From Cycloclasticus pugetii PS-1 (GTDB lineage: Bacteria > Pseudomonadota > Gammaproteobacteria > Methylococcales > Cycloclasticaceae), in assembly GCF_000384415.1 (NCBI RefSeq), contig NZ_ARVU01000001.1, positions 1,860,001 to 1,924,000 of the forward strand: a stretch of 64,000 nt of DNA, in the 5' to 3' direction. The translations under genes were made by a program, and so were the position numbers. Every line of letters begins with the position of its first letter. Position 1 is the stretch's first letter. Positions 56,900 to 59,288 of the stretch are shown piece after piece. The notes beneath the pieces were generated by a model, which worked only from the letters and a program-made list of their open reading frames with translations, did not search any database and was not told the origin of the DNA.

Positions 56900-56997
56900 A
56901 TACTTGACGAGCTAACGCCTACCAATAACGTTTTTTAATTCTTTATTAGGCATACCCTCCTAATTCCTATAGAGTTATAGCTCTAAAGGGAGTTTGC

Positions 56998-57732
56998 TTG
57001 TTTCAGTTAAAAAATAAATTTATTAACCAATTATTCGGCAGTTTTATGGACCTGCTGCCAATTTTTTCAGTGGTTCTTTTTTTTCAGTTATTTATTCTGC
57101 GCCAACCCATCCCCAATATAGCGGATATTGCTATTGGTACAGCTTTTGTTGTACTCGGCTTAACGCTGTTTATTCAAGGTCTTGAAAAAAGCCTATTCCC
57201 CATTGGTGAGACCATGGCCTATGCGTTTGCTAAGAAAGGTAGCTTATTGTGGTTACTAGTCTTTGCCTTTTCATTAGGCTTTGGCACCACTGCAGCCGAA
57301 CCCGCCTTAATTGCTGTTGCCGACGAAGCAGCACGTATTGCAGCGGAAGGTGGCATGATCGAGAAAACTAACAAAGCAAAAGAATCTTATGCTTTTGGTC
57401 TTCGGTTTACCGTTGCCTTCTCTGTAGGCTTTGCCATTTTGTTAGGGGTACTAAGAATTATTCGTGGCTGGCCTCTGCATTATTTGATTATTCCAGGCTA
57501 TATCGGCGTTGTGGTGATGACTTTTTTTGCACCCGAATCAATTATCGGTATTGCCTACGATTCAGGTGGCGTTACTACGTCTACTATCACAGTCCCCTTG
57601 GTAACCACTCTCGGCGTTGGCTTAGCCTCAGCCATTCAGGGCCGCAATCCAATGACTGACGGTTTTGGCTTAATTGCCTTTGCATCACTCACCCCGATGA
57701 TTTTTGTGATGGCATACGGGGTCATTTTATAA
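56998..57732 (+). CDS. DUF1538 membrane protein, first subunit
   Basis: A 244-residue membrane protein with about six to seven hydrophobic segments. The DUF1538 signatures are ALIAVADEA (after AEP) near 103 and [18 protein letters not shown] near 185, then [17 protein letters not shown] near 220. The start is TTG with GGGAG 8 bases upstream; no ATG exists before the first membrane segment. I recall a DUF1538 pair (UmpAB) described in Halomonas as a two-component Na+/H+ antiporter; whether that holds here is inference. An inverted repeat TAGAG-6-CTCTA (56970-56985) sits just before the ribosome-binding site. Confidence 0.85.
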
Positions 57733-58526
57733 TGATATTGCTGGCGGAATTGTGGAGCACTTTCTTAAGTACCTTACGTGATGTCGCGCCAATTATTTTT
57801 GTTATCCTTTTCTTTCAATTGGTCATTATCCGACGACCATTTAGTCATTTGAAAAACTTAATAACCGGAATGGTTTACGTAGTTCTAGGGATGACTTTCT
57901 TTCTTGTGGGTTTAGACAAAGCCCTTTTTCCTTTAGGCACCAGCATGGCCGAACAATTAACCAGCCATGACTTCATCAACCCAACAACCGATCAACGTAT
58001 TTCTATTGCTTGGCAAGACTATTATTGGGTTTATATTTTCGGGGGCTGTATTGGCTTTGCTACAACATTAGCAGAACCTGCTCTTATTGCTGTTGCTATC
58101 AAAGCTCAACAAATTTCTGGTGGTACTATTAAAGCTTGGTACCTAAGGTTGGCTGTGTCTATTGGTGTTGCAGTTGGTATTTCACTAGGGACATTTCGAA
58201 TTGTAAGCGGCATTGATTTATATATGTTTATTATTGCTGGCTACGTCGTTGTCATTATCCAGACTATTTTTTCACCAAAACTCATCATTGGCCTTGCTTA
58301 TGATTCAGGTGGCGTTACCACATCAACCGTCACCGTACCGCTAGTTACCGCATTAGGTATCGGTTTAGCTTCAAGCATTCCTGGCCGAAACCCATTGATG
58401 GATGGTTTTGGCCTTATTGCCTTTGCCAGCCTATTTCCCATCATGGCTGTGTTAGCCTACGCACAATTTGCTGAGTGGGTAAATCATCGCGCACAACTTA
58501 AACAAGCAGACCAAATAGGAGAATAA
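57732..58526 (+). CDS. DUF1538 membrane protein, second subunit
   Basis: A 264-residue paralogue of the preceding gene, joined to it by a TAATG overlap. It shares the [14 protein letters not shown] block near 118, [18 protein letters not shown] near 195 and [17 protein letters not shown] near 228, and has the same membrane layout. Its extra 20 residues lie mainly in a loop near 75-100 (LTSHDFINPTTDQRISIAW). Two related but distinct subunits fit a hetero-dimeric transporter. The P-II-like gene follows after 1 base. Confidence 0.85.
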   Translation: MILLAELWSTFLSTLRDVAPIIFVILFFQLVIIRRPFSHLKNLITGMVYVVLGMTFFLVGLDKALFPLGTSMAEQLTSHDFINPTTDQRISIAWQDYYWVYIFGGCIGFATTLAEPALIAVAIKAQQISGGTIKAWYLRLAVSIGVAVGISLGTFRIVSGIDLYMFIIAGYVVVIIQTIFSPKLIIGLAYDSGGVTTSTVTVPLVTALGIGLASSIPGRNPLMDGFGLIAFASLFPIMAVLAYAQFAEWVNHRAQLKQADQIGE

Positions 58527-58527
58527 A

Positions 58528-58878
58528 ATGCACTTTAAACTCATTATCGTCTTTGTTGATGACAACAAAACTGACAAAGTCCTTAAAGCGGCTAGAGAAG
58601 TAGGCGCCACCGGCGCTACTATTATCAATAATGCACGCGGCGAAGGTATTAAACAGCAAAAAACATTCTTGGGTCTAAATTTAGATACTCAACGAGATGT
58701 TTTGCTTTTCTTGGTCGAAGAACATTTAAGTCGAAAAATTATCGAAGAGGTATCACGAGCGGGTTTATTCGATGAAGAACCGGGCAGCGGCATCGCCTTA
58801 CAAATAGATGTTGAAGATGCTATTGGCGTGCTACATCAAGCAAAAAAAATTACCCAATCAATAGAGACAGAACTATGA
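58528..58878 (+). CDS. P-II-like signalling protein
   Basis: A 116-residue protein with the P-II ferredoxin-like fold: LIIVFVDDNKTDKVLKAAREVG at the start and GATIINNARGEG near 32, where the T-loop would begin. The T-loop is short and lacks the uridylylated tyrosine region of GlnB; the B-loop area reads DEEPGSGIALQIDVEDAIGV. It is therefore an atypical P-II family member rather than GlnB/GlnK. Its place in a DUF1538 operon suggests that it binds and gates the transporter in response to a nucleotide or other ligand. Confidence 0.78.
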   Translation: MHFKLIIVFVDDNKTDKVLKAAREVGATGATIINNARGEGIKQQKTFLGLNLDTQRDVLLFLVEEHLSRKIIEEVSRAGLFDEEPGSGIALQIDVEDAIGVLHQAKKITQSIETEL

Positions 58879-59288
58879 ATGATGCAAAACTTATCACCGT
58901 ACGCGATGTGATGAAAACCGAGTTTTATATGATTGATGGAACAGCCACCATCACAGCAGCTATTAGAATGATGAAAAAAAATAAAACCTCGGTTTTATTT
59001 GTCGATAAATTTCACGAACATGATGAGTATGGCGTGATTAATGCGGGCATTATTGCAAGACTTGTTTTAGCAAAAGATAGAGCACCCGACCGTGTCAATG
59101 TATACGAAATAAATGAAAAGCCACTCATTAACGCACACCCCGACATGGATATTCGTTACTGTTCTCGTTTATTTGCGCGCTATAATTTGATGCGCGCACC
59201 GGTTATGGAACAAGGCAAAATTATTGGTGTTGTTAGTCCTATTCAGCTAGTGCTTGATGGTTTATGTGAAATTACTGGCATTTGTTAA
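58875..59288 (+). CDS. Two-CBS-domain protein
   Basis: A 137-residue protein consisting of a CBS pair: the first starts at VRDVMKTEFYMIDGTATI near 9 and the second near INEKPLINAHPDMDI (75), ending IIGVVSPIQLVLDGL. CBS pairs sense adenine nucleotides. It overlaps the P-II-like gene by 4 bases and ends the four-gene operon, so it is probably a second regulatory subunit of the DUF1538 transporter. Specific ligand unknown. Confidence 0.85.
   Translation: MNDAKLITVRDVMKTEFYMIDGTATITAAIRMMKKNKTSVLFVDKFHEHDEYGVINAGIIARLVLAKDRAPDRVNVYEINEKPLINAHPDMDIRYCSRLFARYNLMRAPVMEQGKIIGVVSPIQLVLDGLCEITGIC

Follow-up and report, generated by a model that had tools for sequence, protein, structure and literature searches.

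A DUF1538 antiporter-type operon with linked P-II-like and CBS genes in a Cycloclasticus genome

Described relatives and the layout of the operon

UmpAB of Halomonas zhaodongensis is a DUF1538 pair that functions as a heterodimeric Na+(Li+,K+)/H+ antiporter and rescued salt-sensitive E. coli, according to its description (PMC5484666). The 4.2-kb Halomonas clone contained a truncated ORF1, ORF2, umpA and umpB, and the main text of that paper nowhere uses the terms P-II, PII or CBS. Because the clone ended at umpB, the published assays were made without such regulators, if Halomonas has them. We analyzed a 64,000-nucleotide stretch of Cycloclasticus pugetii PS-1 (contig NZ_ARVU01000001.1, positions 1,860,001 to 1,924,000; the whole stretch is called the window below) in which an umpA-umpB pair is followed directly by genes for a P-II-like protein and a stand-alone CBS pair. 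In the genomes sampled, DUF1538 is nearly always found together with the P-II-like gene.

P-II proteins are established transporter regulators. The relevant papers describe GlnK plugging AmtB by its T-loop (PMC10710835) and AMP-bound SbtB locking SbtA, again through T-loop docking (PMC8352866). According to the former, a 2023 review, P-II control seems restricted to transporters able to act as trimers, and the tabulated partners are ammonium, nitrate/nitrite, urea and bicarbonate transporters (PMC10710835). DUF1538 appears in a table of pH-linked families in PMC13255231. A literature search whose scope excluded subscription papers, including the P-II-like review by Selim and Alva (2024), returned no description of a P-II or CBS partner of DUF1538. 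The transporter half of the operon is already known as UmpAB; its partnership with P-II-like and CBS proteins was not met in the literature searched.

The operon resembles each of several known systems in part. It shares with Halomonas UmpAB the adjacent paralogous membrane subunits, the overlapping genes and the Pfam family, but its proteins score below the equivalog cut-offs. As with GlnK-AmtB, a transporter gene is linked to its own P-II gene and the protein has a P-II fold; the T-loop is shorter, however, the uridylylation motif and the GDGK and RxR ligand residues are absent, the transporter belongs to a different family, and a CBS partner is added. Like SbtB, the protein has a non-canonical ligand site and is encoded beside a transporter, but that transporter is DUF1538 rather than SbtA, which is a trimer. 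We did not class it as an SbtB: it has neither an SbtA partner nor the C-terminal cysteine R-loop conserved in some SbtB proteins, and the window protein contains no cysteine. CPII of Thiomonas (5d4l-5d4p), whose context we take to be carboxysome-linked, is among the best fold matches of the P-II-like protein, although identity is about 16-20%. Among solved structures, CBS-CP12 (5nmu) is nearest to the CBS pair in sequence (E 4.1e-19); the 137-residue window protein stops after the CBS pair, lacks a CP12 tail, and belongs to a clade in which the nucleotide motif is lost.

The initial annotation had placed four genes at 56970-59288, joined by junctions of 1-4 bases. The open reading frames (ORFs) sit at these positions and the Pfam families agree (Table 1). 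The junctions measured were a 1-base overlap (umpA/umpB), a 1-base gap (umpB/P-II-like) and a 4-base overlap (P-II-like/CBS). The host genome (2.38 Mb, a single contig) contains no other DUF1538 pair. The closest named relatives of the P-II-like protein are from metagenome-assembled genomes (MAGs): an uncultured Cycloclasticus (91%), one labelled Methylococcaceae (88%) and a Cycloclasticus symbiont (86%). The TTG start of umpA is invariant in seven aligned sequences, those of the window and six relatives. Between the window and locus L162, dN is 0.045-0.074 and dS 1.2-1.8 for the four genes (0.045 and 1.65 for the CBS gene); the ratio suggests purifying selection on all four, though it is merely indicative, because dS values above 1 are close to saturation.

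Linkage of the P-II-like gene with DUF1538

Linkage was assessed by co-occurrence in genomes and by inspection of loci chosen by UmpB/DUF1538 score; all samples consist of related genomes rather than independent lineages. DUF1538 was present in 90 and the P-II-like gene in 91 of 274 genomes of the class, with both in 89 (Fisher p 7e-69, relatedness ignored). Co-occurrence here means presence in the genome, as in some drafts the genes are on different contigs. In one of the exceptions DUF1538 is in two frames and the P-II-like gene was found by profile only (G235); in another an umpB remnant precedes the P-II-like/CBS pair (G191), and in a third the P-II-like/CBS pair is 120 bases from a contig end (G098).

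In the loci chosen by UmpB/DUF1538 score, the P-II-like gene was adjacent in 30/30 from the class and 35/36 from the phylum, 65/66 together. The class loci represent 30 of 35 new UmpB-positive genomes, the weak matches G275, G285, G295, G316 and G332 being left out, and the phylum loci, drawn from the best-scoring places, represent 36 of the 113 positive genomes that had not been counted before; the set is therefore poor in weak, diverged types of DUF1538. The loci L062-L160 were chosen by their P-II-like match, apart from L062, the window's own locus and likewise a match, and L161 for its DUF1538 pair, so that the figure of 138/140 for the fetched loci arises largely by construction and was not used as a test.

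The order of the genes is also preserved beyond chance. Of 80 named loci picked by their P-II-like protein, 77 have umpB upstream, and the remaining three start no more than 177 bases from a contig end; the strict order umpA-umpB-P-II-like-CBS is found in 72. CBS comes next after the P-II-like gene in all 80, the two genes overlapping by 4 bases in 60 loci and by 1 base in 13. Of 369 class genomes, G309 scores highest against the UmpB model (469.9 bits), and it has the four genes in this order.

The CBS gene is a common but optional partner. It was present in 55 of the 65 P-II-like-bearing loci chosen by UmpB/DUF1538 score; six others were cut too short, and four had room for the gene but did not contain it. 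No CBS gene occurs in a group of loci (L152-L155) that combine a fused DUF1538 of about 590 residues with a diverged P-II-like protein, although more than 5 kb of sequence remains; L150, L151 and L157 resemble this group, with less sequence left.

Nine plasmid records match DUF1538, and a P-II family gene is annotated beside DUF1538 in 5/5 examined. These five are from Chelativorans and Methylocystis (Alphaproteobacteria) and from Peptoclostridium, Paraclostridium and Vescimonas (Clostridia). In the three clostridial plasmids (L247, L248, L249) the P-II neighbor has 222-224 residues and two P-II segments, and its gene shares the final bases of the DUF1538 gene; in Vescimonas the first segment is partial and weak, and Pfam detects one segment there. 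The clostridial DUF1538 protein has about 500 residues and is double in the two scanned.

Several loci depart from the usual form. P-II-like neighbors of 384-392 residues stand beside fused DUF1538 in G144 (L292, 2226-3380) and G235 (L293, 1974-3152). The protein in L293 has two clear P-II segments and a weak third, whereas that in L292 has a single clear segment flanked by weak ones; as judged from these segments, each is possibly a P-II pseudo-trimer in one chain. Two adjacent units occupy L344 (G490): the first has fused DUF1538, P-II-like and CBS genes, and after it come another P-II-like gene and a DUF1538 pair in split form. In L074 (6472-7726, G122) umpB is separated from the P-II-like gene by a transposase-like ORF, named by eye. 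Two Pirellulaceae-labelled MAGs (L210 and L220, the latter on a 1.2-Mb contig) contain the complete four-gene unit with 68-69% identity in the P-II-like protein, through either transfer or mis-binning. In G473, the ORF after the umpA-umpB pair of L321 resembles one located beyond the P-II-bearing copy in L322, and a further DUF1538 pair is on contig C33.

Sequence and predicted structure of the four proteins

UmpA and UmpB belong to DUF1538 (PF07556, 235.4 and 235.1 bits; gathering cut-off 22.6), and the pair has the UmpAB-type hallmark of paralogous subunits whose genes overlap by one base, at 57732. The NCBIfam models gave 371.1 bits for UmpA (NF041627, equivalog cut-off 490) and 331.3 bits for UmpB (NF041628, cut-off 500). 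As these scores are under the curated cut-offs, the proteins were filed as DUF1538 family members and not as equivalogs; the UmpB cut-off is narrow, since none of the 369 class genomes attains it. The homology supports an UmpAB-type monovalent cation/proton antiporter, with Na+/H+ exchange transferred from the homologue. The initial annotation had linked DUF1538 pairs to this exchange, and PMC5484666 bears it out.

A fused UmpA-UmpB (L225) was considered for modelling; alignment A2 placed the UmpB rows on the UmpA half, and UmpB was therefore modelled alone. The AlphaFold2 model is confident (predicted local distance difference test, pLDDT, 91.3), and its helices are broken at two highly conserved motifs. 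At the first, the modelled helix stops at residue 113 and resumes at 116, with A114, E115 and P116 invariant in alignment A4; at the second it stops at 195 and resumes at 201, with D191, G193 and S198 invariant in the same alignment. Comparison of half-profiles found no internal repeat inside UmpB. A search for solved relatives of UmpB by sequence returned nothing at a useful E-value (best 0.32), and a fold search of the PDB returned nothing convincing (best Foldseek E 0.41). The best VIA Z was 5.7 (root-mean-square deviation, rmsd, 3.7, 69 aligned); 4u9l gave Z 5.2 (rmsd 5.1, 106 aligned) and the MgtE entry 2zy9, which spans the same residue range as 4u9l, gave 4.4. As all these scores are within background, we neither claim nor exclude a transporter family for UmpB. 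DUF1538 may have an unsolved transporter fold, as far as the model indicates; the lack of a match is no proof that the fold is new.

The P-II-like protein is a member of the P-II superfamily (PF00543, 38.0 bits against a gathering cut-off of 25, E 2.1e-9), and a P-II fold is predicted from its AlphaFold2 model (pLDDT 81.2). The best Foldseek matches in the PDB were P-II, CPII and SbtB structures (E about 3e-6 to 1e-5), and comparison with P-II structures gave a VIA Z of 12.8 (rmsd 4.2, 93 aligned); by sequence, the P-II matches among solved structures were marginal.

The T-loop is shortened, as initially claimed: aligned against the two canonical P-II proteins of the host genome, it shows a gap of 5 residues, preceded directly by a single inserted residue. 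Its mean entropy over 73 sequences is 0.59 bits against 0.87 for the whole protein; three core segments are slightly lower (0.49-0.52), and positions 41-44 within the loop are variable (1.92). The model is least confident at the T-loop (block means 66 and 55). A loop that is conserved and yet modelled with low confidence is what would be expected if it folds on a partner.

The residues that define canonical P-II proteins are missing, and we did not class the protein with GlnB/GlnK. For the uridylylation and B-loop signatures and for the numbering of R38, K90, R101 and R103 we used what we take to be the canonical P-II standard. Neither signature was matched in any of 99 P-II-like sequences, whereas the one canonical P-II protein of the host genome that was tested (from L242) matches both. 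At the positions aligned with the ATP-phosphate residues R38, K90, R101 and R103, lysine or arginine is present in 0, 0, 0 and 3 of 79 sequences, respectively. Other polar residues are invariant in alignment A3: R37, R56, D57, E64, H66, R69 and D97. Adenyl nucleotides may still be ligands: SbtB, itself P-II-like, binds them by other means and shows that binding can outlast the canonical residues (PMC10991534).

The CBS pair is recognized by Pfam in two stretches (PF00571, 52.2 bits; gathering cut-off 24). With S/T-x-x-D presumed to be the CBS nucleotide motif, neither repeat of the window protein retains it. The full motif is kept in CBS2 in 93/165 sequences, some genomes being counted twice, and in neither repeat in 60/165, so weakening of the motif is not confined to the clade of the window. 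The aspartate is missing from both repeats in eight sequences: those of the window and L162-L167 make seven, and the other is L219. The initial annotation had described an ion transporter with two separate nucleotide-sensing subunits. An UmpAB-type antiporter with two linked partners fits this description; nucleotide sensing by both partners is unproven, as the canonical P-II residues are absent and the CBS nucleotide motif is degenerate in the clade.

Cyclic di-AMP, as in PstA/DarA and DarB, was considered as a ligand. A search for the DAC domain of its synthase found none in the 99.99%-complete genome and was positive in 11/14 controls, and this ligand was rejected.

Table 1. Positions of the operon, its genes and the sequence features discussed, numbered within the window
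Feature	Position	Strand	Details
Four-gene operon, umpA-umpB-P-II-like-CBS	56998-59288	+	Cycloclasticus-group genome
umpA-type DUF1538 membrane subunit	56998-57732	+	244 aa, TTG start
umpB-type DUF1538 membrane subunit	57732-58526	+	264 aa
P-II-like protein	58528-58878	+	116 aa
Stand-alone CBS pair	58875-59288	+	137 aa
UmpB TTLAEP motif, first helix break	58062-58079	+	residues 111-116; AlphaFold2 model and alignment
UmpB second conserved motif, second helix break	58299-58328	+	residues 190-199; AlphaFold2 model and alignment
Short T-loop of P-II-like protein	58633-58698	+	residues 36-57; family consensus ARGEGLKxSKTFFGLxLETQRD
CBS1 nucleotide-motif position	59040-59051	+	residues 56-59; NAGI in place of S/T-x-x-D
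CBS2 nucleotide-motif position	59235-59246	+	residues 121-124; SPIQ in place of S/T-x-x-D
umpA ribosome-binding site AAAGGGAG	56985-56992	+	read from sequence
Imperfect palindrome before umpA ribosome-binding site	56970-56985	.	14/16 bases self-complementary

An inverted repeat ahead of the first ribosome-binding site had also been noted in the initial annotation. It is real in the window, but it is not a feature common to the six relatives. The 101-nt leader (56900-57000) can pair the umpA ribosome-binding site (z -2.35; 4/200 shuffles as stable). The hairpin at the same place in the closest relative, L162, is weak (5 bp), L167 has a different 7-bp stem around its own ribosome-binding site, and the remaining four have stems of 3-4 bp that were often matched by shuffles. 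An operator was rejected as a shared feature. The promoter scan gave 6 sites against 6.3 in shuffles and the terminator scan 3 against 2.5, which is about equal. PADLOC gave no match for UmpB, the P-II-like protein or the CBS protein. The neighboring genes, named by eye as AmpD-like, AmpE-like, NadC-like and an AGCS-type symporter, reflect mostly local synteny; because some genomes are in two collections, their counts are too high and were not used as a functional hint.

A proposed gating mechanism and its alternatives

We consider it reasonably probable that the operon encodes an UmpAB-type heterodimeric cation/proton antiporter with its own cytoplasmic controllers, the P-II-like protein gating transport through its T-loop. 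The P-II-like protein would most likely form the usual P-II trimer and, by its short conserved T-loop, would dock on the UmpA-UmpB dimer from the cytoplasmic side and keep the antiporter in one state. Whether it docks would depend on a small ligand in the cleft formed by neighboring P-II subunits, and the CBS pair would provide a second, optional input through either the P-II-like protein or the transporter. Trimer, ligand, stoichiometry and CBS role are our inferences, as are docking and gating, which are modelled on GlnK-AmtB and SbtB-SbtA. The logic of those systems fits the operon because the P-II-like protein is dedicated, its T-loop is conserved and its linkage outlasts that of other neighbors; loop conservation and gene linkage bear on docking indirectly.

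Several points weigh against such gating. UmpAB was active in E. coli without the regulators (PMC5484666), so they are not needed for activity. Locus L321 (G473) has umpA-umpB with neither a P-II-like nor a CBS gene downstream, and eight fetched loci carry the P-II-like gene without DUF1538. The canonical ligand residues are absent from the P-II-like protein, and the substrate of the window's UmpA and UmpB is assigned by homology from scores below the equivalog cut-offs. There may also be a symmetry mismatch, UmpAB being a heterodimer and the P-II targets trimer-capable; by analogy with those targets, a P-II-controlled UmpAB would be a departure from the trimer pattern.

The absence of ligand residues would also fit a different role, in which the P-II-like and CBS proteins serve the antiporter as permanent accessory subunits or as assembly factors rather than as ligand-driven switches. 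The nearly constant linkage and overlapping genes, the loss of K90 and R101 in 79/79 sequences, the loss of the CBS motif in the window clade, and fused and tandem forms that hint at a fixed stoichiometry agree with this. We nonetheless think it unlikely, given the activity of UmpAB alone (PMC5484666), the retention of the seven invariant polar residues and the optional nature of CBS. It is quite unlikely, in our estimate, that the physiological substrate is not mainly Na+/K+ but, for example, inorganic carbon, ammonium or an organic ion coupled to cations, with the P-II-like protein reporting carbon/nitrogen state as for AmtB and SbtA. The nutrient transporters among the P-II partners in the review (PMC10710835), the scores under the equivalog cut-offs, and the lack of a solved relative by sequence or a convincing fold match for DUF1538 speak for such a substrate; the homologue, however, gave Na+, Li+ and K+/H+ exchange and rescued salt-sensitive E. 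coli (PMC5484666), and no nutrient gene is constantly linked to the unit.

Soluble enzymes can be targets of free-standing P-II and CBS proteins: GlnB is one example, and DarB reportedly acts on both (p)ppGpp synthesis and pyruvate carboxylase. It might then be that the P-II-like and CBS proteins have other targets and share the operon for no reason beyond being needed together under certain salt or pH conditions. Half of the eight loci without DUF1538 are explained by neither contig ends nor an umpB remnant: L141, L142 and L159 are extra copies in genomes that also own a linked P-II-like copy, and L081 lies among other genes. The remaining four are three contig ends (L086, L105, L126) and an umpB remnant (L106), and the linkage to DUF1538 survives across classes into Clostridia while other neighbors change; we regard separate targets as very improbable.

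The gating proposed for the window might extend to DUF1538 antiporters generally, by P-II-like proteins with a rebuilt, non-canonical pocket that dock on a dimeric, pseudo-symmetric antiporter. The P-II-like protein would occur in single, tandem-double and perhaps triple forms, and its ligand may be a non-nucleotide such as bicarbonate, an ion or a metabolite. P-II control would then reach beyond trimeric nutrient transporters, to the balance of Na+/K+ and of cytoplasmic pH. We hold this extension to be tentative and rather doubtful.

DUF1538 occurs in about a third of the sampled class genomes (90/274), and nearly all of these have the P-II-like gene as well. Gating by the P-II-like protein, if it holds, would wire a P-II signal directly into cation and pH balance, and the published UmpAB kinetics would describe a transporter tested without such a regulator. 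The operon also offers a test of the statement in the 2023 review (PMC10710835) on trimer-restricted P-II control.

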